Shown here: piece by piece, positions 9,804 through 23,296 of the stretch
How the letters are laid out: the number at the start of each line of letters is the position of its first letter
Position numbering within the stretch: the first letter of the stretch is position 1
From: Salinicola sp.
GTDB taxonomy: Bacteria > Pseudomonadota > Gammaproteobacteria > Pseudomonadales > Halomonadaceae
Length of the DNA stretch: 32,204 nt
Reading direction: 5' to 3'
Assembly: GCA_002695065.1 (NCBI GenBank)
Contig: NZNW01000038.1
Span: 1 to 32,204 of the forward strand
Translations under genes and position numbers: made by a program
The notes under the pieces: model-generated
What the model saw: the letters and a program-made list of their open reading frames with translations, nothing else
What the model was told of the DNA's origin: nothing
The model's database searches: none

Positions 9804-10889
9804 ATGCCCTGGCAGCCCGACACGCCGTTCAACGACATTCCACGCTTGCCGCCAGAAGTCGGCGATATCGAGACGAGGGCCATCCTCAAAGCCTGTATCG
9901 AAGCGCGCGCGGCACTGGCCGAACTGAAACAGGCTGGCGAGCTGCTGCCGGATCAGGGGCTATTGATCAATCTGCTGCCAATGCTCGAGGCGCAGGACAG
10001 CTCCGAAATCGAGAACATCGTCACCACGACCGACAAGCTGTTCCAGTTTGCCGAAGAAGATACACTCGCCGACCCGGCGACAAGGGAAGCATTACGCTAT
10101 CGGACGGCGCTCCATGACGGCGTCCGCCAGATCCAATCCCGCCCGCTGACCGTCGGCACTGCTGAAATCATTTGCACAACGCTCAAGGGCATCGAGATGA
10201 GTGTCCGCAGGGTGACGGGTACGACGCTCAGCAATCAGCGCACCGGCGAAGTCATCTATACGCCTCCCGTCGGCGAGCCGTTGCTTCGTGATCTGTTGGG
10301 GAACTGGGAACAGTTTCTGCACGTCGAAGATGATCTCGACCCCTTAGTCAGAATGGCGATCGCGCACTATCAGTTCGAGGCCATCCACCCGTTTCTGGAT
10401 GGCAACGGCCGTACCGGACGTATTCTCAATATCTTGTTTCTCATCGAACGCAACCTGCTGACGCTGCCGAGCCTCTATCTGAGCCGCTATATCGTCCGCC
10501 ACAAGAGCGACTACTACCGCCTGCTGCTGTCCGTTTCCGCCGGCGACGATTGGGAGCCCTGGATTCTGTTCATGTTGAAGGCAGTCGAGCAGACGGCACG
10601 CTGGACGACGGCAAAAATCGCGGCGATTCGGCGCCTGATGGGCGAGACGCGCGATCATATTCAAAAGGCGCTACCCAAGCTCTACAGCCACGCGCTGGTA
10701 CAGCTGATTTTCGAACAGCCGTATTGCCGTATCGGCAATCTCGTCGAGCGCGACATCGCCAAACGCCAGACCGCGTCTGTCTATCTCAAGCAGTTGGTGG
10801 AAATCGGCGTGTTGGAAGCGAGGCAGGCCGGAAAAGAACGGCTTTTTATCAATGCACCGCTCATGGCGCTGATGCGGGACGACGGATAG
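9804..10889 (+). CDS. Class II Fic-domain protein (probable AMP-transferase)
   Basis: A 361-residue protein. The Fic catalytic motif HPFLDGNGRTGR is complete at residues 195-206, including the catalytic His and the phosphate-binding Asn-Gly-Arg. An N-terminal inhibitory helix with the (S/T)xxxE(G/N) pattern is seen as SSEIEN at residues 66-71, which makes it a class II, self-inhibited Fic protein that needs no separate antitoxin. The C-terminal 90 residues (LYSHALVQLIFEQPYCRIGNLVE...SVYLKQLVEIGVLE) look like a winged helix, as in SO4266-type Fic proteins. It would transfer AMP from ATP to a target protein; the target is unknown. The ribosome site is poor, which fits low expression. It borders the defence island and may be a stand-alone stress or defence effector. 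Confidence 0.92.
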   Translation: MPWQPDTPFNDIPRLPPEVGDIETRAILKACIEARAALAELKQAGELLPDQGLLINLLPMLEAQDSSEIENIVTTTDKLFQFAEEDTLADPATREALRYRTALHDGVRQIQSRPLTVGTAEIICTTLKGIEMSVRRVTGTTLSNQRTGEVIYTPPVGEPLLRDLLGNWEQFLHVEDDLDPLVRMAIAHYQFEAIHPFLDGNGRTGRILNILFLIERNLLTLPSLYLSRYIVRHKSDYYRLLLSVSAGDDWEPWILFMLKAVEQTARWTTAKIAAIRRLMGETRDHIQKALPKLYSHALVQLIFEQPYCRIGNLVERDIAKRQTASVYLKQLVEIGVLEARQAGKERLFINAPLMALMRDDG

Positions 10890-11162: not shown

Positions 11163-11554
11163 AGACGGGCTCTGGGCGTCGTGATGTGCTGTTAAGCGTT
11201 CAAGGGGTGGAGTTAGTGCTAGGAAGGCGAAGGCCCGCTATTGTCCAACGGGAGTATCGGAATTTGAAATAGGGGTGTTCGTTATTTCAACTTGGGACAT
11301 AAAATGAAATAGTCTCGCAATATGCGTTAACTTCGAGGCAAGGCGAATGTATCGCGACTTGACCGGTCACCATCTTCCCAGCATCGCTGGCAGCATTATT
11401 TGTCAGGCGTTCGTGCCGACGCCGTTGCTGCCCAAAGCACAGTTGTTTCTCTATCTCGCGCTCAGATTGCTGAGGCTGGATACAGAACCTGCCACCAAGG
11501 AGTAGCAAGATCAGCAGATCGTGCTTCTCAACAGGAGGGGGTGCCATAAAGATC
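11163..11554. promoter_or_regulatory. Leader region of the defence operon
   Basis: About 390 bp without a convincing gene. A plus-strand open frame of 52 codons at 11347-11505 and a minus-strand frame overlapping the next gene lack any recognisable feature. The stretch contains an inverted repeat at 11264-11290 and a further TGAAATAG half-site at 11305-11312. An AGGAGG sequence ends 16 bases before the first gene's ATG, rather far for a ribosome site. Confidence 0.5.
11264..11290. promoter_or_regulatory. Inverted repeat upstream of the sigma-factor gene
   Basis: TTGAAATA at 11264-11271 is exactly inverted as TATTTCAA at 11283-11290 around 11 bases. A third, direct half-site TGAAATAG lies at 11305-11312. 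The same octamer TTGAAATA recurs in the dcm-vsr divergent promoter at 22743-22750. It is a candidate operator or special-promoter element for the island. Confidence 0.4.
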
Positions 11555-13741
11555 ATGGATAGGCTGTCCTGGGACCTTAGTAGGTGCGCCCAGCAGATAA
11601 GCGAAACTGAAAGCCTCGTTCTTGACCCCGTCGAGATCCGGCTGATTGCTGAAGGTAGGCTCGAAAGGCTTGCCGATTTTGCGGCGTCCTCTCGCGTGCA
11701 TGCTGTCGACCCAAAGGGCGACACGTCGCTCCATCTTGCGGCGCGCAAAGGAAATCTTGCTGTTTGCGATCTCTTAATTCGGTCGGGTGCTGACCCTAGG
11801 GCACTGAATCATGACTGGCAGACACCCGCTGACGTGGCATTTGCCGAAGGCAACCGCTTGGCCGCACAACTCCTCTTGGCCGCACAACTCCTCTCCTCGC
11901 TTGTTGCGACTTCACTGGCGACGGCCAGCGAGCACGATGATATATCGGAGATCGACACGGCCCTGGGCGGAACTGACGCGGGGTTAGAGCATGGTTTCGA
12001 TATGGTTAGAGAGATTGAGTCGGATGATACGACCGACGACCCTGATGACATCCTGAGTTTTGAGGCCGAGGCAGAGCCTGAGGAATTCTTCGACCAACAT
12101 ACAGGGGAAACTGCGTCGGGGGAGTTCATTGCGCTCGTCAGCTCGGCATCTGTAGTTTCCGACGAACAGGACGGGGATTGGCATTTAGACCTTTCTCCCG
12201 CGCCGATTGCCGGAGAGGGGATTGGCGCCAGCGCCGCAATACAAGCGGATCACGGTGCAGAACATGACTTTCTCAAGGTTCGCAACCGCGGTCGGAAATC
12301 ACTTAAGCGCGCTGTCATTCAGAGCGGAACGCGGCTTTCGATCGATCCGAAGATCTGCATCAGCTGGGCACAAGAAATATTGGCAAAGGGCTGGTGCTCT
12401 ATTGATGATGTCGACCAGTTAATTTTCCTCTGCGAAGGTAATGGTGACCTCGACGAACTACGCATCAACCTTCAGCGCACTTTGGAAAGTGCGGGTTTTG
12501 ACTTTATCGGTCAAGCCCAGGAGTACGAAGCTGGGCTTTGGAATGCCAGATCAATCGTATTGCCTATGGAGCTTGCTGAAGCGATTGAGGCGACCCTGAC
12601 TCGCAAGACGAGTTTTCCAGGAACGCAACGCTTCGTGATGGATAGGGCAAACGAACTGCAGCTATTAGAACCAATGGTTCGTGCGAAGCAGGAACTCCAA
12701 TTGGAAATTCTTACTTCCGAAATTGTCGTCGAAATGATCGTCGATGTCCTAGACAGCATCCGCGACGGGACCCGGGAACCCGGTTCGGTTTCGTTGCGGA
12801 CAATCATTCCGTTGCGCCCCGATCACACCGAAACGGCCGAGGTGATGTCAGCTGTTGAAGCCTTGAGGTCTTGGCAAGCCAATGGTCGCGTAATGGATGG
12901 AAAACAGCGACGAGAAGCACTTGCGGCGCTTGAGGCCCTAGACCTTTCTCTTGTGTTCCACAAAGAGTTAGTTCGATCTTTCAAGAAAGGAAGGGAGAGC
13001 GTCGATCATTCAATCCGGTTGGGCGAGCTGATTTCAAGGTACGAAGCAGCCAACGAGCGGTTAATTATTGAGCACCTTGCCTATGCGCGGCGTTTCTCAG
13101 CAAGGAATGTGGAGGACGGTGAGGACCCGGAAGATGTTTTTCAGGTGGCTTTTACGGGCTTGCAGCGCTCGACGAGGCGCTTTGACCCGACGCGTGGGAC
13201 CAGATTCGTAATCTATTGTACTTTCTGGATGAAGCAGGCGCTGAACAGATGGCGTGCAGACGAGGGTGCTTCTATCCGTGTCCCTGTGCACAGGCATGAA
13301 AATCTCGTGAACCTTGATTGTGCGTTCAAAAATCTGGACATTTGGGCGAATGGCAGGGTTTCCGACAATGAACTCGCTGCGGAGCTGGAATGGACACTTG
13401 ATGAAGTGCGGCAGTTCCGCAGCATCCCCCGCGAGGCCGAGTATCCCGACAGCATTGATGACTGGGACGATCTGCTGCCCGAGCCTGCGGAAGAGGATGT
13501 ATTCGATCAGGCTGAAACAGAAGCGATTGTCACGGATATTCTTGCCGAGCTGCAAGAGCGTCAGGCAGACGTAATCCGAATGCGCTTTGGCATCGGATGT
13601 GATACCCAAATGACCCTGGAAGAGATCGCTCAGCTCTATGGACTTACGCGAGAGCGTATCCGCCAGATTGAAGCCAAGGGACTCGGCCGCCTGTCCCTTC
13701 CGGGACGCAAGCGTCGCCTTCGAGAACTGCTGGGAATGTGA
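11555..13741 (+). CDS. Ankyrin-sigma70 fusion protein, first gene of the defence operon
   Basis: A 728-residue protein with a sigma70-family C-terminal half. Residues about 53-115 resemble ankyrin repeats (DPKGDTSLHLAARKGNLAVCDLLIRSGADP, then DWQTPADVAFAEG). Residues about 128-210 form an acidic linker. Residues about 260-320 have a helical pattern that may correspond to sigma region 1.1 (weak). Region 2 is clear at about 498-585: NERLIIEHLAYARRF, EDVFQVAFTGLQRSTRRFDPTRG, FWMKQALNRWRADEGASIRVPVH. Region 4 is clear at about 655-715: LQERQADVIRMRFGI and LTRERIRQIEAKGLGRL. It stops four bases before the GHKL ATPase start. It should bind RNA polymerase core and a promoter; the ankyrin part may sense or bind a partner (inference). 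No anti-sigma gene is adjacent. The ATG at 11555 is the likely start, though the ribosome site is distant. Confidence 0.88.
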   Translation: MDRLSWDLSRCAQQISETESLVLDPVEIRLIAEGRLERLADFAASSRVHAVDPKGDTSLHLAARKGNLAVCDLLIRSGADPRALNHDWQTPADVAFAEGNRLAAQLLLAAQLLSSLVATSLATASEHDDISEIDTALGGTDAGLEHGFDMVREIESDDTTDDPDDILSFEAEAEPEEFFDQHTGETASGEFIALVSSASVVSDEQDGDWHLDLSPAPIAGEGIGASAAIQADHGAEHDFLKVRNRGRKSLKRAVIQSGTRLSIDPKICISWAQEILAKGWCSIDDVDQLIFLCEGNGDLDELRINLQRTLESAGFDFIGQAQEYEAGLWNARSIVLPMELAEAIEATLTRKTSFPGTQRFVMDRANELQLLEPMVRAKQELQLEILTSEIVVEMIVDVLDSIRDGTREPGSVSLRTIIPLRPDHTETAEVMSAVEALRSWQANGRVMDGKQRREALAALEALDLSLVFHKELVRSFKKGRESVDHSIRLGELISRYEAANERLIIEHLAYARRFSARNVEDGEDPEDVFQVAFTGLQRSTRRFDPTRGTRFVIYCTFWMKQALNRWRADEGASIRVPVHRHENLVNLDCAFKNLDIWANGRVSDNELAAELEWTLDEVRQFRSIPREAEYPDSIDDWDDLLPEPAEEDVFDQAETEAIVTDILAELQERQADVIRMRFGIGCDTQMTLEEIAQLYGLTRERIRQIEAKGLGRLSLPGRKRRLRELLGM
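11857..11892 (+). repeat. In-frame 18-bp tandem duplication in the sigma-factor gene
   Basis: CTTGGCCGCACAACTCCT occurs twice in direct succession (11857-11874 and 11875-11892). It duplicates the hexapeptide LAAQLL at the end of the ankyrin segment, giving LAAQLLLAAQLL. The copies are identical, so the event is recent or prone to slippage. Confidence 0.95.
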
Positions 13742-13745
13742 TGGC

Positions 13746-15248
13746 ATGAGTGTACGGAATGCTCCTCCTCATGCGGGGGCGATGCTCGAGTCTCTGCGGG
13801 GCCTCGGTTATGCGCCTGCGACCGCACTTGCCGATCTGATCGACAATTCGATCTCGGCGAATTCGCGAGAGGTATCTATTCATCTAGAGTGGGCCGGTCC
13901 GGAAAGTTGGGTGCGGGTCGTCGACGACGGCGATGGCATGGACGATAGAACCCTTGAGACTGGCATGCGGCTCGGTGCACGCGATCCGAAGGCTGAACGC
14001 GCTGCCAGCGACTTGGGGCGCTTTGGGCTGGGATTGAAGACAGCAAGCTTCTCGCAGGCTCGGCGACTGACCGTGGCTAGTCGGAAGAACGGCGGGCCGG
14101 TCGTGTGCCTGCGCTGGGATCTCTCTCTTGTTGGTCAAGAACCAGGTACAGAATGGCCACTCTTTGAAGGCCCTGCGCCGGGGTCAGAGCATCTGATTGC
14201 GCCACTTGTGAAGATGGAACACGGCACGATCGTGCTTTGGGAAAACCTTGACCGTATCGTGACCGATGGGTTTAACGCCACAGACATGATCGAGCTTGTT
14301 GATCGTATCGAGGCGCACCTTGCGATGACCTTTCATCGCTTTCTTGACGGCCCGCAGCCCGACCTTCGCCTTCTGCTCAATAGTAGAGAAGTGAAGCCTT
14401 GGGATCCGTATCTTGTGGGGCACCCCGGCAAGGCACTCGAAAGCCCCGTGTATCGGATCCTCCACACCACTGGTGTGACAGCTCAAGGCCATGTCCTTCC
14501 TCATCGCGACATGCTCAAGCCCGCCGAGCAGGAAGTCGCAGCGGGGCCTGGAGGATGGACGCAGCAGGAGGGTTTCTATGTCTACCGCAACAAGCGCCTC
14601 CTTCTCGCGGGAAGTTGGCTGGGCCTCGGCGACGGCGGTAAGCCATGGTCGTGCGATGAAGCCCACAGGCTTGCCCGCATCCGGCTCGACATACCGAACA
14701 GCGCTGACGCCGATTGGAAGATCAATGTCCTGAAATCGACGGCCAGTCCACCAGTAAGGCTGCGCTCTCAGCTCCATCGTTTGGCATCGGAAGCACGCGA
14801 CACGGCGAGACGGGTTTTCGCCCACCGTGGGTATATCACCCCAGCTTCTGGAACGCGCTCGAGCGCGGTAGCAGGGGCTTGGCAGGTGAGGCGTTCGGTA
14901 CAAGGGACATCCTACCGGATTGCCCGTGACCACGACCTCGTTGCCTCGATCCTTAATCGCGCCGGTCCGGTCAAGTCCGATATTCTTTCTCTTCTCAGGC
15001 TCATCGAGGAGACCGTTCCTGTTCAGCGTATTTGGCTGGATACGACGGAAGATAAGGAAACGCCAAGGACAGGTTTCGTCGGAGCGCCCGACAACGAAGT
15101 TATGGAGACGCTGTCCTCTATGTTTGAAGCGCTGGTGACGTTTCGCGGACTTAGCCCGACCGAGGCGCGCGAACGGCTCGGTCGCACGCCCCCATTTGAT
15201 CGACATCTCGATCTGGTTTCAGCCCTTGAGGTAAAAGACAGGCAATGA
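13746..15248 (+). CDS. GHKL (MORC/MutL-like) ATPase of the defence operon
   Basis: A 500-residue ATPase of the Hsp90/MutL/MORC superfamily. ATP-binding motifs are visible: the N-box ALADLIDNSISA (about 28-39), the G1 motif DDGDGM (60-65) and the G2 motif GRFGLGLKTAS (91-101). The long C-terminal part has no recognised domain. Proteins of this kind act as ATP-driven clamps on DNA and, in the predicted MORC-type restriction systems, are paired with Z1, nuclease and AIPR proteins. The start is the ATG at 13746, which gives MSVRNAPPHAG and is four bases after the sigma gene's stop; the open frame upstream lies inside the sigma gene. It overlaps the Z1 gene by four bases (ATGA). Confidence 0.92.
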   Translation: MSVRNAPPHAGAMLESLRGLGYAPATALADLIDNSISANSREVSIHLEWAGPESWVRVVDDGDGMDDRTLETGMRLGARDPKAERAASDLGRFGLGLKTASFSQARRLTVASRKNGGPVVCLRWDLSLVGQEPGTEWPLFEGPAPGSEHLIAPLVKMEHGTIVLWENLDRIVTDGFNATDMIELVDRIEAHLAMTFHRFLDGPQPDLRLLLNSREVKPWDPYLVGHPGKALESPVYRILHTTGVTAQGHVLPHRDMLKPAEQEVAAGPGGWTQQEGFYVYRNKRLLLAGSWLGLGDGGKPWSCDEAHRLARIRLDIPNSADADWKINVLKSTASPPVRLRSQLHRLASEARDTARRVFAHRGYITPASGTRSSAVAGAWQVRRSVQGTSYRIARDHDLVASILNRAGPVKSDILSLLRLIEETVPVQRIWLDTTEDKETPRTGFVGAPDNEVMETLSSMFEALVTFRGLSPTEARERLGRTPPFDRHLDLVSALEVKDRQ

Positions 15249-18112
15249 CGATTTTAAACCAGAAGGCCTTCGATTCAATCCTTTCCATCGCGCAGAACAT
15301 GCTCCGACTTGCGGCGGAGCGTGCCCAGAGTTCCGTCACCCCGGAGATGATCGAGAAGGAGCTCAACAAGCTCACAATCATGATGGAAGAGGACTTTGCC
15401 CTTGTTGATCGGGATGCACTTGTAGACGAGCTGATCCGTCGATCAAGCCGCACCGTGGGTGACAACGCTACGCTATCCAGCGGTGAGGACCATATTGCTT
15501 GGCTCGATGCGGAAAGGAAGAAAGGCTGGACGTACTGGCAGCGCTACTCCGAATACATGGAGACACGCATCCCTTGGACGGCCCTCGACGCCCTAGACGT
15601 GGCAACGGATGAAGTCCTGTCGCAACTCGAGGACCCGATCCGGGAAGGCGCATGGGATCGTCGCGGTCTGGTCGTAGGTCATGTTCAGTCGGGAAAAACC
15701 GGCAATTATACCGGACTGATCTGCAAAGCCGCCGACGCCGGTTACAAGATCATCATCGTGTTGGCTGGCCTGCACAACAACCTCAGAGCCCAGACCCAGA
15801 TCCGCCTCGATGAGGGCTTTCTTGGCTTTGCCACTATCGCTGACGCTGAAGAGCTTCCAGCAGTAGGGGTGGGACTGATCGACAAGGACATGTCGGTCCG
15901 TCCCAACGCTGCAACCAATCGCAGCGACAAGGGCGACTTCAATACGGCCGTTGCGGCGAAGATGAACATAAGCCCGGAGCAGCGACCATGGTTGTTCGTG
16001 GTCAAGAAGAACAAGACGGTGCTGGAGCGCCTGCTGCACTGGATCCGCAACCGTGTCGCCAATCACATCGACCCCGAAACAGGTCGTAAACTCGTCACCA
16101 ACCTGCCTCTCATGGTTATCGACGACGAGTCCGATCACGGATCTGTCGATACGGGCGAAGATATCGTAGACGAGTTCGGCATACCGGATCTCGAACACGA
16201 ACCCAAGACTATCAACAGATTGATCCGGTCAATACTCCACCACTTCTCGCGAAAAGCATATGTCGGCTACACGGCGACGCCTTTCGCAAACATCTTCATT
16301 CATGACCGTGGGGAGACTCAGGAGCACGGACCGGACCTCTTCCCCGCAGCCTTTATCACCAGCCTTGCGGCGCCATCGAATTATGTCGGACCGGGTCGTG
16401 TCTTCGGATCAGCTTCCAGCACGCCGGAAGACCTGCCTCTGGTGCGCCCGCTGTCGGACGATGAGTTCCAGCCGTGGATGCCGCCACGACACAAGAACGG
16501 CTACCGGCCGCGATGGCAGGGGGAGGATCGTGTGCCGGACTCGCTCGCAGAAGCGATCCGCTCCTTCGTCTATGCCTGTGCCGTGAGGAAGCTGCGCGGA
16601 CAGGGCAGCAAACACTCCTCGATGCTCATCCACGTTACCCGCTTTACCTCGGTACAGAACGCTGTCGTCAACCAAGTCGCAGAGTACGTGCGAGATCTGA
16701 AGGGCCGCTACAACCGCGGCATCGAGCTCGAGAACCTCGAGGCGTCCATGCGCAAGGAATATGAAAAGACCTTCCTGCCAGGCATGAAGGGAATCCGCTC
16801 TGCCCTCGTCGAAGGAGAAACGCTAGAGGACTTCTCGTGGGCGGACATTCGTGGCGTCCTCCCCGACGTCCTATCAGACATTCGCGTGCGCGAAATCAAC
16901 GGGACGGCCAAGGATGCACTCGACTACGCCGAAAATGATGCCACTGGCCTCAAGGTGATTGCCATCGGCGGTGACAAGCTGGCGCGTGGTCTGACGCTCG
17001 AGGGTCTCTGCACGAGCTACTTCCTTCGAACCGCACGTATGTACGACACACTCATGCAGATGGGGCGATGGTTCGGCTACCGCGACGGCTACCTCGATGT
17101 CTGTCGCCTCTACACATCGCAGGAAATGGTGGAGTGGTTCGGCCACATCGCCGATGCGGCCGAAGAGCTGCGCCAGGAGTTCGACAACATGGTCGCGGCT
17201 GGCGCCACGCCAAAACAGTTTGGTCTCCGGGTGAAATCGCATTCCGTGCTGACGGTGACCTCTCGGGCCAAGATGAGAAACGCTCGCGCGATGCAGCTGA
17301 CCTATTCGGGCGATCTTCTGCAGACCATCGTGTTTCCCAACCGCAAGGAAGACATCACTGCAAACTTCAATGCCACGGATCGGTTCATCAGCACGTTAGG
17401 TCCATCGACCGATCTGAACGATCAGTATTTCCTTCCACAAGGTCAGAAGTGGAACGGTCACCTTTGGCGGGATGTGTCAGCCCTGAACGTCATTTCGTTC
17501 CTGCGGGACTACAGGACCCACTCCGCCAGCTTCCGGATCATGAGTCCGCTGATCGCGGACTTCATCGAGGAGATGAACAAGGATCGTGAGCTGACGAACT
17601 GGACGGTCGCACTGATCGGGAAGGACAGCGGCCCGGACGACAAGCACCGCACGGTAGGTGGTTGTTCGGTCAACATGCTCCAGCGCAAGCGCACGACCGA
17701 ACATGCGGATCGATACTCGATCAAGACCCTGATCTCGCCTCGCGATCAAGCAATCGATCTGACGGAAGCGGAATGGAAGGCTGCACTGGAGCTCAGCCGG
17801 AAAACGTGGCGCAACGACACCGATCGCAACGAGGGCAAGGAGCCTCCATCAGAGCCGAGAGGTCCCCAGATCCGTCACGTTCTCGGGGAAGGCGACACCG
17901 AAGCAGGCGTCCGGGCTCGCCGGGAGCGTGGTCTCCTGATGCTCTATCTGCTCGATCCCGAGAGTGCCGGCGTCGATGAACTGAAGAATGCCGATCCGGT
18001 CGTCGCCTGGGCAATCAGTTTTCCGTCAAGCACTTCCGAGAGAAGGGTGTCCAACTCGAGGTACATCGCCAACAGCGTACTGTGGGGGGGCCTCAATGAG
18101 TGGGTGGACTGA
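15245..18112 (+). CDS. Z1-domain SF2-like ATPase of the defence operon
   Basis: A 955-residue protein of the Z1 family, a helicase-like P-loop ATPase group associated with restriction systems. Walker A is GHVQSGKT at residues 145-152 and Walker B is VIDDE at 291-295, followed by YTATPFANIF (about 342-351), the equivalent of helicase motif III. A C-terminal motor lobe is marked by GGDKLARGLTLEGL (near 575) and MQMGRWFGYRDG (near 604), the latter with an arginine-finger-like pattern. It probably translocates on or remodels DNA for the nuclease partner (inference). It overlaps the upstream gene by four bases and the downstream gene by 17 bases. Confidence 0.92.
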   Translation: MTILNQKAFDSILSIAQNMLRLAAERAQSSVTPEMIEKELNKLTIMMEEDFALVDRDALVDELIRRSSRTVGDNATLSSGEDHIAWLDAERKKGWTYWQRYSEYMETRIPWTALDALDVATDEVLSQLEDPIREGAWDRRGLVVGHVQSGKTGNYTGLICKAADAGYKIIIVLAGLHNNLRAQTQIRLDEGFLGFATIADAEELPAVGVGLIDKDMSVRPNAATNRSDKGDFNTAVAAKMNISPEQRPWLFVVKKNKTVLERLLHWIRNRVANHIDPETGRKLVTNLPLMVIDDESDHGSVDTGEDIVDEFGIPDLEHEPKTINRLIRSILHHFSRKAYVGYTATPFANIFIHDRGETQEHGPDLFPAAFITSLAAPSNYVGPGRVFGSASSTPEDLPLVRPLSDDEFQPWMPPRHKNGYRPRWQGEDRVPDSLAEAIRSFVYACAVRKLRGQGSKHSSMLIHVTRFTSVQNAVVNQVAEYVRDLKGRYNRGIELENLEASMRKEYEKTFLPGMKGIRSALVEGETLEDFSWADIRGVLPDVLSDIRVREINGTAKDALDYAENDATGLKVIAIGGDKLARGLTLEGLCTSYFLRTARMYDTLMQMGRWFGYRDGYLDVCRLYTSQEMVEWFGHIADAAEELRQEFDNMVAAGATPKQFGLRVKSHSVLTVTSRAKMRNARAMQLTYSGDLLQTIVFPNRKEDITANFNATDRFISTLGPSTDLNDQYFLPQGQKWNGHLWRDVSALNVISFLRDYRTHSASFRIMSPLIADFIEEMNKDRELTNWTVALIGKDSGPDDKHRTVGGCSVNMLQRKRTTEHADRYSIKTLISPRDQAIDLTEAEWKAALELSRKTWRNDTDRNEGKEPPSEPRGPQIRHVLGEGDTEAGVRARRERGLLMLYLLDPESAGVDELKNADPVVAWAISFPSSTSERRVSNSRYIANSVLWGGLNEWVD

Positions 18113-19100
18113 AGAAGGACTCGCACGTGCGTGGCGAGCGCTTGCACGTCAGGAAGCGGCGGAAGATTGGCGATTTGTGCATCTCACCGATATGGGCGCC
18201 GTCTCGGTCGAGGCGGGGTGTCACTTCCCCCTCGGACGGGAAGCCTTGATCGTTTCCTTTCCCGGATCGTGGCCGGTGAACCCGGCAAGGCTTCCTGAGG
18301 GCAAGGGCTTCGACGTCTCCTGCATTGAGGGTCAGTCCGTATTCACAGGCAAGACGGCGATTGCTCTCGTCAGGCGGCCGGAGGGCTCCCCCGACATCTT
18401 CGCCATCATGGTCGTGGATGTCTTGAGAACTCTGGATACAGCAGCCAACAGCGCGGGCCGCGATGTTATGGAGACCTTCCTCGAACGGGTCAGGGAATGG
18501 CAGGCTTTCATGGCCCGAACGCACCGTCCTCTTTCGTCCGATGCGCAGATCGGCCTGCTCGGCGAACTCTGGATGCTCAGGCTGCTCACGGACACCTCCC
18601 TCGGAGCTGGTGCTCTCGACTGCTGGCAGGGGCCGTTGCGGGCTGCACAGGACTTCCACGTTCGGGGTGGCGCGATAGAGGTGAAGAGCACGGTCCGGAC
18701 CGGCAGCTTCCTCGCGCGGATCAACAGCATCGAACAGCTGGATGGTGACCGGGAGCCCAACTTCCTGTGCGCCTTTCGCTTCGAGGAGAATACCGATGGG
18801 ATCTCGCTCGTAGATCTTGTGACTGAACTCCGAGAGAGGTTCGGACTGGCCGGAGTGCAACGCGGGTTCGAAGCACTGCTCATGGTGATGGGGTACCTCG
18901 ACGAGCATGCAGCGCTCTACGGGCGCACACTTACATTGAAGGACGCAAGGGCGTTCCGCGCGGAAGGTGACATGCCGCGTCTCACGCGCGCTGCGCTTCC
19001 AGCTGCCATCCGCTCAGCTGCCTATTTGCTCGACCTCGACGCGCTCGAAGCCCCCTCGATCGGACTTTCGGAGTTGATCAACGAATTTGGACTGGATTGA
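18096..19100 (+). CDS. PD-(D/E)XK-motif protein (DUF4420-type) of the defence operon
   Basis: A 334-residue probable nuclease. The PD-(D/E)XK core is visible in order: Glu157 in IGLLGELWML, Asp186 in AAQDFHV, and EVK at 195-197 in GGAIEVKSTVRTG. This matches the family found next to Z1 and AIPR genes. It is the best candidate for the DNA-cutting subunit. The start at 18096 (MSGWTEEGLARAW) is 17 bases inside the Z1 gene, and the open frame upstream of it is only a shadow of Z1. The next gene starts one base after its stop codon. Confidence 0.9.
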   Translation: MSGWTEEGLARAWRALARQEAAEDWRFVHLTDMGAVSVEAGCHFPLGREALIVSFPGSWPVNPARLPEGKGFDVSCIEGQSVFTGKTAIALVRRPEGSPDIFAIMVVDVLRTLDTAANSAGRDVMETFLERVREWQAFMARTHRPLSSDAQIGLLGELWMLRLLTDTSLGAGALDCWQGPLRAAQDFHVRGGAIEVKSTVRTGSFLARINSIEQLDGDREPNFLCAFRFEENTDGISLVDLVTELRERFGLAGVQRGFEALLMVMGYLDEHAALYGRTLTLKDARAFRAEGDMPRLTRAALPAAIRSAAYLLDLDALEAPSIGLSELINEFGLD

Positions 19101-19101
19101 C

Positions 19102-20907
19102 ATGAGCCTCGACGATTTTCACCGCAACTTTCGTTCCGATCTGCAGACCATCATCGCCGAGCGCGTAGAGGCCGGCGAAGGCCCATTTCCTTCGGATGAG
19201 CTCGTTTTTGCGGAAATGGTCATGGAGCATGTTGAAGAAACCGGGATCTGCGAGGCACCAACCGTTTGCCACTGGAGCGGCAAGGTCGGCAACGCGAAAC
19301 TCCGCATTACGGGCTATGCGCTCAGCTCCGATGAAACAGCTCTCGACCTCTTCGTGACCCACTATTTCGGGACAGAAGAACTGAGCGATCTCAGGGACTC
19401 GGATGCCACCGCAACCGCAAGCGAAGGCGTTCGCTTTCTGTTTCGAGCGGCAAGCGGCAACCTCGATGCAAAGATCGATCCGACGCATCCGGTCAGGGAT
19501 CTGGTTGCGACCATTCGTTCTCACTGGGGCGACATCGACCGACTTCGTGTGTTCGTGATTACCGATGGCCGAACCAAGAACAAACGCTTCTCGAATAAGG
19601 AAGTTCACCAGAAGATAGTGGCCGTCGAAGCCATGGATATGGAACGGCTGTTTAGGCATACCGAAGGCAAGCCGCGGGATGAACTCGCTGTCAGTCTCGT
19701 TCAATCGATCGGTCGCCTCCTCCCCTGCGTCCATGTCCCAGACCCTGATGCGGACTACGAGTACGTCCTGACAGCAATTCCGGGGCAGCTCATCCGCGAT
19801 CTCTACCTGCGGTTCGGTACCCGGCTCCTCGAGGCCAACGTCCGGACTTTCCTCGGCGCCAAGCGCGCAGTTAATAAAGGAATCGTGGAAACACTCCGAA
19901 AGGAGCCGGAACATTTCTTGGCTTTCAACAATGGGCTGGTTCTTGTCTGCGACGAGGCCTCATTCGAGCGAACTGACGAAGGGAGTCTGGGCCTTGCCTT
20001 CATAAAGGGGCTGCAGATCGTGAATGGTGGACAGACAACTTCATCGATCTACTTCGCATCGCGTGATGATCGAACAATCGACCTTAGCCACGTCATGGTT
20101 CCCGCCAAGATCATCATCCTAAAGGGCTCACAGGACGAAGCTCGCGAGAGCCTGATAAGCAATGTCTCACGCTACGCGAACAGCCAGAATGCCGTGAAAG
20201 TATCGGATCTTTCGGCAAACCGGCCGTTCCATGTACAACTCGAAAAGCTTGCAAACGACATTTGGTGCCCGGATGGTGTGACCCGCTGGTTCTATGAGCG
20301 TGCTGCCGGCGCGTATAACGTCATGCTGCTTAGGGAGGGGACCACACCGGCCAAGCGGAGGAAACTGCAGACAATGGTCGGGCCCCGTCGCAAGCTAACA
20401 AAGAACGACGTCGTCAAATATCATGAGGCTTGGCGCGGTAAGCCCTACAACGTGGCTCTCGGTGGTGAGAAGAACTTCGCTGCTTTCATGGCCGCCCTCG
20501 ATGATGACCCGTCGATCGTCCCGAATCCGCTCGACGCTCGATGGTATCGGACGATGATTGCCAAAGTCATTTTGTTCAAGGCAATCGAGAGCATGATCAA
20601 GACAAAAGATGCAAAAGCTATCTTTCGTCAAGGGTATGTGAACATTGCTACTTATGTTGTTGCAATTGTCGCAGATCGTCTTGGAGACAAACTCGACCTT
20701 GAACAGATATGGAGAAACCAAACCATCTCCACAAGCCTTCGTAATCTGCTCTGGGATTGGGCCATAATTGTGAACGCGGAGTTCAATAGAATCGCTCCTG
20801 GTCAGCAGTTTTCTGAGGTCGCAAAACGCGCAGATACATGGGCAAAGATGAGGAACGCTGAGTTTTCAAGGCCGCCTAGTTATCTTCAGGAGCTGCGTAG
20901 CTTATGA
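19102..20907 (+). CDS. AIPR-family protein (abortive-infection-type) of the defence operon
   Basis: A 601-residue protein of the AIPR family. The hallmark region is FLGAKRAVNKGIVETL, then FLAFNNGLVLVCDEA and IVNGGQTTSSIYFA with NGGQTT at residues 308-313, then SRYANSQNAVKVSDL. Members were linked with abortive infection by phage; the biochemical activity is not settled, though a nuclease role has been suspected. The start at 19102 follows the previous stop by one base (TGA-C-ATG); a TTG 15 bases upstream is a less likely alternative. It is the last gene of the co-directional set and converges on the methyltransferase gene 111 bp away. Confidence 0.9.
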   Translation: MSLDDFHRNFRSDLQTIIAERVEAGEGPFPSDELVFAEMVMEHVEETGICEAPTVCHWSGKVGNAKLRITGYALSSDETALDLFVTHYFGTEELSDLRDSDATATASEGVRFLFRAASGNLDAKIDPTHPVRDLVATIRSHWGDIDRLRVFVITDGRTKNKRFSNKEVHQKIVAVEAMDMERLFRHTEGKPRDELAVSLVQSIGRLLPCVHVPDPDADYEYVLTAIPGQLIRDLYLRFGTRLLEANVRTFLGAKRAVNKGIVETLRKEPEHFLAFNNGLVLVCDEASFERTDEGSLGLAFIKGLQIVNGGQTTSSIYFASRDDRTIDLSHVMVPAKIIILKGSQDEARESLISNVSRYANSQNAVKVSDLSANRPFHVQLEKLANDIWCPDGVTRWFYERAAGAYNVMLLREGTTPAKRRKLQTMVGPRRKLTKNDVVKYHEAWRGKPYNVALGGEKNFAAFMAALDDDPSIVPNPLDARWYRTMIAKVILFKAIESMIKTKDAKAIFRQGYVNIATYVVAIVADRLGDKLDLEQIWRNQTISTSLRNLLWDWAIIVNAEFNRIAPGQQFSEVAKRADTWAKMRNAEFSRPPSYLQELRSL

Positions 20908-21018: not shown

Positions 21019-22719
21019 TCAAATCGAACTGATGCGTGATATGTCTTGGTCATGGTTTTTACGTATCAATTCTAGCGCGCTTGCTACTTGGTTAGCTATA
21101 AGACGAGCCAGTAGGGGCGGTACTGCATTGCCTACCTGAACATACTGTTGGGTGCGGTTTCCCTCAAAATAGTAGTCATCCGGAAAGGTTTGAAGCCTTG
21201 CGGCCTCTCGCACGGTTAAGCTTCTGCATTGACTCGGATCGTAGTGGATGAAGTAATGTCCGTCCTTTGAAATGTGGCTAGTTATGGTCTTGGACGGTTG
21301 GTTTTCCAGTATGACACTGAATCTATCGGCAAATTTGCCAGACTTCCAGTTTGCATGGCTAGGAGTAAGGGAGTCGAGATAGATTTCCTGACTGCCCTTC
21401 GGTGCACGCCCTGTGACCTTGGCAAAAGAGGCACAATAGAGATACCTGGCTAGGTCCTGTTCCATATGGGCCCGTGTTTCATGGTTGTACCAAGGGCCCT
21501 TTTTATTGGGAGCCTGAGAGCCGTGGTACCACTTGCCTAGCCTGTTGGTAGGCCGGATGAGCCTAATGACGGACTCGGAGCTGGGTTTCCTTTTCAGCTC
21601 CATGGCCGGTTTGTTAGAGATTCTGCGCAATTCCTCAACAATGAGTTTTCTGTCGGTCGCTTTGACGTGCTCACTGCTATGGACAGTGAGCTCGTCTGCA
21701 ATCCTGGTTGCTAGGTGTTTGATGATGTCGCACCAAGCTTCATCCGAGTCCTGTTGACGGCTCAGTCCGCTGCGCAGCATGGGAAGCTCGGCAAGCACAT
21801 CGGCTGCGGTTACCTGCTCATCCAACCCGGCTTTCGGGATTTTTAGAATATCGGCGAGAGTTGGAGCGCCTAAATCTTGCACAATATTGTTCCTGACACC
21901 GACGAGAATCACTCTGTGCCGAGCTTGGGGAATGCCATGACGTTCGGCTCTTATGGTAAAAGCTCCATATTTGTCCTCTGCTAGGGGAGAAGATTCGAAT
22001 AATGTTCCGCCATCCGGATAGTAGACATCGGAATTCTCAAGCGAAAAGATAGTGTATCCGTCCTTTGCGTATGAAGAAAACTCTGTTCCTTGAATCCCGG
22101 TAGCTGCAGCCGGATCACGTAGATCGCTGAGAATTTGACCAAATATTCTGTCTCGGCCGACCTTTGACGTAAGTATTCCTTTGACATTTTCCATGACAAA
22201 AATGGATGGCTGAAATCTTGCAATGATGTTCAGATATTCTTTGTACAGAAAATGTCGATCATCTTTTTCTGGTCGATAATCCTTGTTGCCGCGATTGCGA
22301 GAGCGACCTGCGAGAGAATAGGCTTGGCAAGGCGGGCCGCCTATCAGCACCCAGTCTTGTTCGGTGTCCAGCTCCTCTCCAAGGCGTTTTTCCAGGATTT
22401 CGTTTCCATCCTCGCTGCCCAGTGTCAGGCAGAGGGCCTCCTGACGAGCTTGCTCCCATAGATGTTGCGTACTCTCGTTTTCAGACGGATGAGTACCACC
22501 CTGAAGATAGCTATAATAGGTCGACATGCCGAGCTCACTGTCACGTAGTAGCCTGTAGAAAGCCCGCAGTGTCAGTGTGCGATGGGCAGAAGGCTCTTTC
22601 TCTACGGAGATCAGCGTCTGGAATGCCCGTGAACCATCGGACATTCGAATCGAATTGAAGCCTTCACCCAGCCCTCCGGGGCCGGCAAACAAATCAACTA
22701 TCTGAATGGGCTTCATCAT
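21019..22719 (-). CDS. DNA (cytosine-5-)-methyltransferase
   Basis: A 566-residue C5 methyltransferase. Motif I is DLFAGPGGLGEGF (9-21), motif IV is GGPPCQAYS with the catalytic Cys131, motif VI is MENVKG (about 176-181) and motif VIII is QARHRVILVG (265-274). The C-terminal motifs are SLTVREAARLQTFPD and QYVQVGNAVPPLLA (about 500-535). Compared with minimal enzymes it has an insertion of about 60 residues between motifs I and IV and a long target-recognition stretch at about 330-470. The specificity cannot be read from sequence. It is divergent from vsr with 45 bp between them. It probably protects host DNA from the nuclease genes on the opposite strand (inference). Base composition is visibly richer in A+T than that of the host genes. 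Confidence 0.95.
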   Translation of the reverse strand: MMKPIQIVDLFAGPGGLGEGFNSIRMSDGSRAFQTLISVEKEPSAHRTLTLRAFYRLLRDSELGMSTYYSYLQGGTHPSENESTQHLWEQARQEALCLTLGSEDGNEILEKRLGEELDTEQDWVLIGGPPCQAYSLAGRSRNRGNKDYRPEKDDRHFLYKEYLNIIARFQPSIFVMENVKGILTSKVGRDRIFGQILSDLRDPAAATGIQGTEFSSYAKDGYTIFSLENSDVYYPDGGTLFESSPLAEDKYGAFTIRAERHGIPQARHRVILVGVRNNIVQDLGAPTLADILKIPKAGLDEQVTAADVLAELPMLRSGLSRQQDSDEAWCDIIKHLATRIADELTVHSSEHVKATDRKLIVEELRRISNKPAMELKRKPSSESVIRLIRPTNRLGKWYHGSQAPNKKGPWYNHETRAHMEQDLARYLYCASFAKVTGRAPKGSQEIYLDSLTPSHANWKSGKFADRFSVILENQPSKTITSHISKDGHYFIHYDPSQCRSLTVREAARLQTFPDDYYFEGNRTQQYVQVGNAVPPLLARLIANQVASALELIRKNHDQDISRISSI

Positions 22720-22764
22720 TTGTCAAATCTGCAACGTGTTAATTGAAATAATAGGGCGGAAGTG

Positions 22765-23238
22765 ATGGCTGATATCGTTGATTCCCCGACTCGCTCCCGA
22801 ATGATGCGGACGATTAAGGGACAGAACACTCATCCGGAAATCGTTCTGAGAAAGTATCTGCATGCCCGTGGATACCGCTTCAGGCTGCATCGGAAAGGCC
22901 TCTCCGGCTCTCCGGATATTGTTCTTCCTCGTCATAATCTGGTGATCTTTGTACACGGCTGTTTCTGGCATAGACATGCCAACTGTTTCTATACCACGAT
23001 GCCGAAGACTAGGCCGTCTTTTTGGCAGGCCAAGTTTGAGGGCAATACTCGTCGTGATCGGACTGCATACGGAGCCTTGAATCAGGCGGGCTGGCGTATT
23101 CTTGTTGTATGGGAATGCGGTATCAAACATTGGCGCGAACAGATGTGCGACATTCCCGAGCTGATTCAGACAACCGATCAATATCATGAATGGCCTGCCA
23201 AACCTCCTAGAATGGGTAGAAAGCCGCGACAGACCTAA
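22765..23238 (+). CDS. vsr: Very short patch repair (Vsr) endonuclease
   Basis: A 157-residue mismatch nickase that starts repair of T:G mispairs arising from deamination of 5-methylcytosine. The key residues occur at the same numbers as in the E. coli protein: Glu25 in NTHPEIVL, Asp51 in SGSPDIVL, and His64 and His69 in VHGCFWHRHANC, the last also containing zinc-ligand residues. The ATG at 22765 is preceded by AGGGCGGAAG; a GTG one codon upstream is possible. Its presence indicates that the adjacent methyltransferase makes 5-methylcytosine. The stop lies 58 bp from the yicC stop, and the two genes converge. Confidence 0.95.
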   Translation: MADIVDSPTRSRMMRTIKGQNTHPEIVLRKYLHARGYRFRLHRKGLSGSPDIVLPRHNLVIFVHGCFWHRHANCFYTTMPKTRPSFWQAKFEGNTRRDRTAYGALNQAGWRILVVWECGIKHWREQMCDIPELIQTTDQYHEWPAKPPRMGRKPRQT

Positions 23239-23296
23239 CCATCTCGACCAAGGCATGATACCAAGTTATCTGGGTTGAGCTAGGAGTATCAAACAC

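Follow-up and report, generated by a model that had tools for sequence, protein, structure and literature searches.

The window, the whole 32,204-nucleotide stretch of Salinicola sp. DNA analysed here, carries five contiguous genes on one strand in the order of the MZA system, mzaA-B-C-D-E. The first, mzaA (11555–13741, + strand), is a stop-free open reading frame with an ATG start and encodes a 728-residue ankyrin–sigma70 fusion, as judged from the reading frame, its Pfam domains and a best NCBIfam match to MzaA. mzaB (13746–15248, +) encodes a GHKL (MutL/MORC-like) ATPase matched by the NCBIfam MzaB model and starts four bases past the mzaA stop at 13741, the spacing already reported in the first-pass annotation of this DNA. 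Beyond mzaC lie mzaD (17988–19100, +), encoding a DUF4420/PD-(D/E)XK protein, and mzaE (19087–20907, +), encoding an AIPR protein, both assigned by Pfam and NCBIfam. Position 17988 opens the mzaD reading frame, but as its profile match starts only at residue 45, the true start probably lies further downstream. The mzaE frame opens with TTG, and an ATG is present at 19102.

Each of the five proteins has its own Mza model as best match, in NCBIfam as well as in PADLOC. The NCBIfam scores of MzaA to MzaE (200, 638, 1183, 280 and 690 bits) all fall below the corresponding equivalog cut-offs (800, 850, 1500, 420 and 1050 bits). By gene content, gene order and best matches, the operon is recognised as a divergent MZA anti-phage system, not as a set of NCBIfam equivalogs. 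It shares its five genes and their order with the MZA loci of the named family (MzaA: NCBIfam NF041931, PADLOC PDLC02203 and the RefSeq E. coli copies), and its MzaB to MzaE are 50, 52, 36 and 41% identical in local alignments to those of one E. coli locus (L098, mzaA-E in RefSeq). The E. coli MzaA likewise joins ankyrin repeats and sigma-70 regions within one protein, with stronger sigma regions than the window copy.

In the available excerpt of PMC9523054, mzaA is termed 'a sigma factor' and mzaABCDE is termed validated, with citation of Gao 2020; an anti-phage role of the window operon is predicted from its membership in this system. The earlier view of sigma factors as foreign to such operons is therefore mistaken, since MzaA is the named sigma factor of MZA in both NCBIfam and that excerpt. 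A grouping of MORC-type ATPase, nuclease and AIPR genes like that of the window also appears, in the portions available, in the MORC/nuclease/AIPR systems of PMC9523054 and in the restriction–modification operons of PMC2292703 (Iyer 2008) that include MORC-type ATPases, and cytosine methylase genes are among those named with the latter operons. BrxL of BREX, according to the available part of PMC12839542, resembles MzaA in that it, too, serves in defence and has a DNA-binding domain of sigma-like type.

The window MzaA begins with ankyrin repeats (residues about 25–112; 11627–11890, +), followed by an acidic linker (residues 113–216; 11891–12202, +). Pfam detects Ank_2 at residues 45–109 (28.2 bits against a cut-off of 27.3), Ank at 55–85 and Ank_4 at 59–108; Ank_2 and Ank_4 both exceed their cut-offs. 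In the AlphaFold2 model, three helix pairs begin at residues 25, 58 and 91 and so recur every 33 residues; with the Pfam matches this indicates at least two tandem repeats. The mean pLDDT of the model is 47.6, rising to about 73–76 across residues 21–80. Positions 26–108 of the NF041931 profile align with window residues 46–134, so the family profile itself covers the ankyrin part. The first-pass annotation had placed the ankyrin at about residues 53–115; the repeats are present but the block begins earlier, with the helix pair at residue 25. The linker contains 29 D/E against 1 K/R, for a net charge of −28. A fold comparison of the model returned sigma subunits among its best 50 matches, which carries little weight given the poor model and low TM-scores.

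The C-terminal part contains sigma region 2 (residues 499–585; 13049–13309, +), a degenerate region 3 (residues 586–654; 13310–13516, +) and a region 4 with an RpoD-like −35 helix (residues 655–718; 13517–13708, +), the last marked by invariant TRER-RQ-E-K positions. Sigma70_r2 matches residues 509–568 (E = 1.3e-9, 38.2 bits against a cut-off of 24) and Sigma70_r4 residues 663–713 (E = 1.5e-15, 56.9 bits against 24.1), and the sigma-70 superfamily model TIGR02937 scores 78.1 bits against 42.9. By these cut-offs the window MzaA belongs to the sigma-70 family, and binding to core polymerase and transcription initiation are predicted activities. Sigma70_r3 reaches 18.8 bits, under its cut-off of 25.3, and Pfam reports none of regions 1.1, 1.2 and the non-essential region. 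On these results the window copy does not qualify as a group 1 housekeeping sigma factor of the RpoD type, and a full-length sigma factor is rejected as well, so that the initial description of a 'full' sigma70 factor was too strong. The combination of ankyrin repeats, acidic linker and sigma regions 2 and 4 in one 728-residue protein, as first described, is borne out.

To sample relatives, 44 loci were fetched, L005 through MzaA and all others through MzaC, which was chosen as the search anchor because the NCBIfam MzaA model, which RpoD also matches, hits every genome of the class (274 of 274). The MzaC-fetched loci comprise 5 of 32 matching plasmid records, 16 loci from genomes, 14 viral contigs, 2 of 55 E. 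coli genomes and 6 more genomes. MzaA is present in 18 of the 44, giving 19 proteins with the window copy, among which L045/L046, L098/L099, L059/L061, L060/L100 and L102/L103 are close pairs. A family-profile search of reading frames of at least 120 residues in 42 loci (the short contigs L094 and L096 left out) found no further MzaA, apart from a match to region 4 only in L065.

All 19 proteins contain Sigma70_r2, Sigma70_r4 and Ank_2 (E up to 0.05), the E. coli copies included; in L088 only the ankyrin portion downstream of the ORF start is present. An acidic linker with a net charge between −10 and −31 is found in every one, and mzaA lies immediately 5' of mzaB at each locus. On these domain matches the ankyrin fusion is a family-wide trait of MzaA, seen in every copy examined (n = 19). 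The proposal of a novel fusion in a novel setting is accordingly rejected: MzaA is a named family with ankyrin throughout, its place as the sigma factor of MZA was already known, and of the original interpretation the ankyrin–sigma anatomy stands while the novelty of the setting does not. A search of published titles and abstract openings found no description of the MzaA ankyrin, which is weak evidence, as subscription journals were mostly outside the search.

One protein, that of L060 (L060:4049–6472, +), carries an extra C-terminal GcrA domain at residues 756–803 (Pfam E = 1.8e-17), the only such case among the 19. GcrA is a sigma-70 cofactor. Of 5426 E. coli genomes, 55 contain mzaA over 80% or more of the query length, and the number with an mzaC match is also 55. 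None of the 64 phage records (of 50,697) or 411 plasmid records (of 72,556) that match the MzaA query does so over 80% of its length. The 15 phage matches listed of the 64 cover the sigma part only, as do the 40 listed of the 411 plasmid matches, one of which (H5) is an MzaA, that of L045. Among solved structures, the best 60 of 424 matches to MzaA are only sigma factors, ankyrins and designed ankyrins, and none was found for MzaC. In the MzaC tree the sigma-bearing loci form one clade, with three state changes sufficing to explain their distribution; no MzaA was found in the 24 other rows, and in one of these, L084, the contig breaks off shortly before mzaB.

RpoD resembles MzaA in regions 2 and 4. 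Outside the window's subclade the likeness extends over nearly all of RpoD: a profile of ten such MzaA proteins aligns over residues 226–749 with residues 6–615 of the RpoD profile (E = 8e-132). MzaA differs in having ankyrin repeats and an acidic linker in front, and the window copy also in its eroded region 3 and N-terminal sigma regions. The RpoD encoded by the same genome gives no ankyrin match. Residue numbers and roles (−35-reading, −10-reading and core-related) are those of E. coli RpoD. The presumed −35-reading residues R584, E585 and R588 are invariant in all 19 proteins, as are the equivalents of Q589, Q437, W434, F427, R451, D403 and Q406. Those of H455 and Y430 are each kept in 18 of 19. 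Other promoter residues vary, T440 being T in 7 and W433 being W in 12 of the 19. The E407 equivalent is E in 11. In the seven-member subclade of the window, E407 is replaced by V, N409 by F, and W433 is F or Y; core binding is less certain there because of the E407 and N409 changes and the weak region 3. Group-3 sigma factors also differ at or lack these residues, and a loss of core binding is not claimed from the two substitutions.

Among the close relatives (window, L005, L060 and L063), no other gene of the operon has diverged as far as mzaA. Over the six pairs dN is 0.21–0.37 for mzaA versus 0.02–0.14 for mzaB-E, and dN/dS, where computable, is 0.10–0.24 versus 0.05–0.14. The synonymous sites of mzaA are near saturation and far more diverged than in mzaB-D, so the higher divergence partly reflects allele age. 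An older age is as expected if mzaA alleles have been exchanged. Divergence within the protein is greatest at residues 1–44, 113–235 (spanning the linker) and 466–498. The ankyrin repeats of the window, L005 and L060 are 73–80% identical versus 71–75% for sigma region 2, and a fast-changing ankyrin engaged in a sensor arms race was dropped as a reading, the ankyrin of these three copies being about as conserved as sigma region 2.

L063 presents a different picture. Its ankyrin is 72–73% identical to those of L102 and L103, which come from the same host family, and 24–27% identical to those of its five close relatives. The rest of the protein follows the operon: the middle part is 69–76% and sigma region 2 66–78% identical to the close relatives, and the L063 MzaB-E are 83–91% identical to the window's. 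The trees conflict in the same manner, with AU p = 0.0034 against grouping the L063 ankyrin with its operon relatives and p = 1e-73 against grouping its sigma part with L102/L103, p-values weakened by the naming of the clades after the identities had been seen. The ankyrin clade of L063, L102 and L103 has support of 92/90, below the star of the tool. The switch point falls within the acidic linker, at about L063 residues 100–180. These comparisons show at least one exchange of the ankyrin as a whole, with its boundary in the linker; the event is that of L063 alone. Such behaviour would be expected of a specificity or sensor module, and among the observations made here it is the principal new one. 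A second exchange was not found among the 55 E. coli mzaA genes, in 3 of which the ankyrin segment is 80–90% identical versus 90–95% for the middle segment.

Immediately upstream, the window retains the 3' remnant of a WYL-type regulator gene (11457–11560, +), which overlaps the mzaA start, has an in-frame stop and shares 71–76% DNA identity with the WYL gene ends of L060, L085 and L100. In these three of the six closest loci an intact gene for a WYL-domain regulator runs into the 5' end of mzaA (called by Pfam in L060 and L085, and in L100 by 89% DNA identity to L085). The window keeps about 100 bp of the gene's 3' end and L005 about 170 bp, and no match to the gene was found in L063. Because of this overlap, control of mza transcription may rest with the WYL regulator. 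Upstream of the intact genes, L060, L085 and L100 share inverted-repeat-like DNA (CCCAGAAA.TGGGCGCGCA, with a GCGCA...TGCGC block), read by eye, which could be a candidate WYL operator. A scan for sigma-70-like promoters found none upstream in the window (0.4 expected) and only one in E. coli, on the wrong strand (0.7 expected). An operon promoter motif was rejected, there being nothing over chance, and the upstream DNA common to the close relatives is the end of the WYL gene.

MzaA is, on the reading that we tentatively favour over a nuclease tether or a phage anti-sigma decoy, an ankyrin-gated, promoter-reading sigma subunit of MZA. The ankyrin repeats and linker would hold MzaA autoinhibited, a ligand would release this autoinhibition, and the promoters of the mza operon would be the targets. 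The constant pairing of Sigma70_r2, Sigma70_r4 and Ank_2, the −35 residues, the linker and the adjacency to mzaB, all in 19 of 19, argue for such a subunit, as do the L063 exchange, the GcrA fusion of L060 and the alignment with the RpoD profile. Weighing against it are the variable −10-reading residues, the changed E407 and N409 and weak region 3 in the window's subclade, an ankyrin that changes no faster than sigma region 2 in the window, L005 and L060, the absence of a recognisable operon promoter, the WYL regulator of close relatives, with which transcriptional control may lie, and the 24 MzaC-tree rows in which no MzaA was found.

Fixed −35-reading residues in all copies, together with the decay of region 3 and the N-terminal sigma regions in the subclade of the window, would suit a targeting subunit that carries the nuclease assembly of MzaB-E to promoters or transcribing polymerase, so that transcribing incoming DNA is attacked. 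The ankyrin or the linker would then dock MzaB-E, a role with which the position of mzaA directly before mzaB and the conservation of the ankyrin in the window, L005 and L060 are compatible. The L063 ankyrin, however, was swapped while MzaB-E stayed close to the window's, a surprising finding for a docking face. The linker ranks with the protein's most divergent stretches, and the rows with no MzaA found also speak against this role; we regard targeting as rather unlikely. Still less probable is a decoy or guard, in which MzaA would mimic host sigma-70 and phage sigma-seizing proteins (AsiA-like anti-sigma factors and others) would bind it and trigger MzaB-E: the highly conserved region 4, the nearly full-length RpoD match outside the window's subclade and the divergence of mzaA among close relatives fit, but the ankyrin repeats and the exact keeping of the −35-reading residues are left unexplained, and the exchanged part is the ankyrin, not region 4. 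Equally improbable is a plain accessory sigma factor, gained by one MZA clade only to keep the operon expressed in new hosts and using its ankyrin for stability or localisation, to which the single MzaC clade with its three state changes, the retention of mzaA beside an eroded WYL gene in the window and L005 and the unhurried ankyrin would be suited, against an ankyrin in every copy (partial in L088) and its exchange as a unit, which points to a function for the ankyrin itself.

Catalogues list MZA among the anti-phage systems with a sigma factor for which no explanation of its role was found. New here is the exchangeable ankyrin as a putative sensor module of MzaA, which gives direct access to the question of why a sigma factor belongs to a defence system; with the family-wide ankyrin, the exchange at the linker and the invariant −35 residues, a sigma role in phage defence becomes testable. 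Extending the gated subunit further, MzaA might be a modular, RNA-polymerase-based infection sensor, an exchangeable ankyrin on a promoter-reading sigma factor through which an R-M-like nuclease would be armed or aimed via transcription initiation and whose exchange would alter what is sensed. This extension is doubtful, and slightly more so given that in the window, L005 and L060 the ankyrin and sigma region 2 are conserved to about the same degree.

The operon is flanked on its 3' side by diverging genes for a C5-cytosine DNA methyltransferase (21019–22719, −; Pfam DNA_methylase) and a Vsr mismatch endonuclease (22762–23238, +; Pfam Vsr, 1.9e-27). Both are recurrent MZA partners, each with a homologue in 30 of the 44 loci, so that MZA-like systems look like R-M systems with m5C marking. 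The methylase is found in 10 of the 18 sigma-bearing loci and in 20 of the 24 others, the flanks compared being unequal in length; that of L044 is known from annotation only. Unlike in the window, neither gene was found in the E. coli loci examined, two from among the 55 mza-bearing genomes. A 177-residue reverse reading frame at 22723–23256 was dropped, as it overlaps the Vsr gene on the opposite strand.

Three further observations concern the operons and their neighbourhood. In L099, an IS421-family element splits mzaB. In L065, an 817-residue reading frame (L065:12367–14820, −) that runs to the end of the fetched stretch contains a lone sigma region 4 (E = 1.4e-7) and adjoins an MZA-like operon that yielded no MzaA. 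Just upstream of the window operon, positions 9804–10889 (+) encode a SoFic-type Fic adenylyltransferase, which scores 612.9 bits against an NCBIfam cut-off of 550 and is matched by a PADLOC model too.
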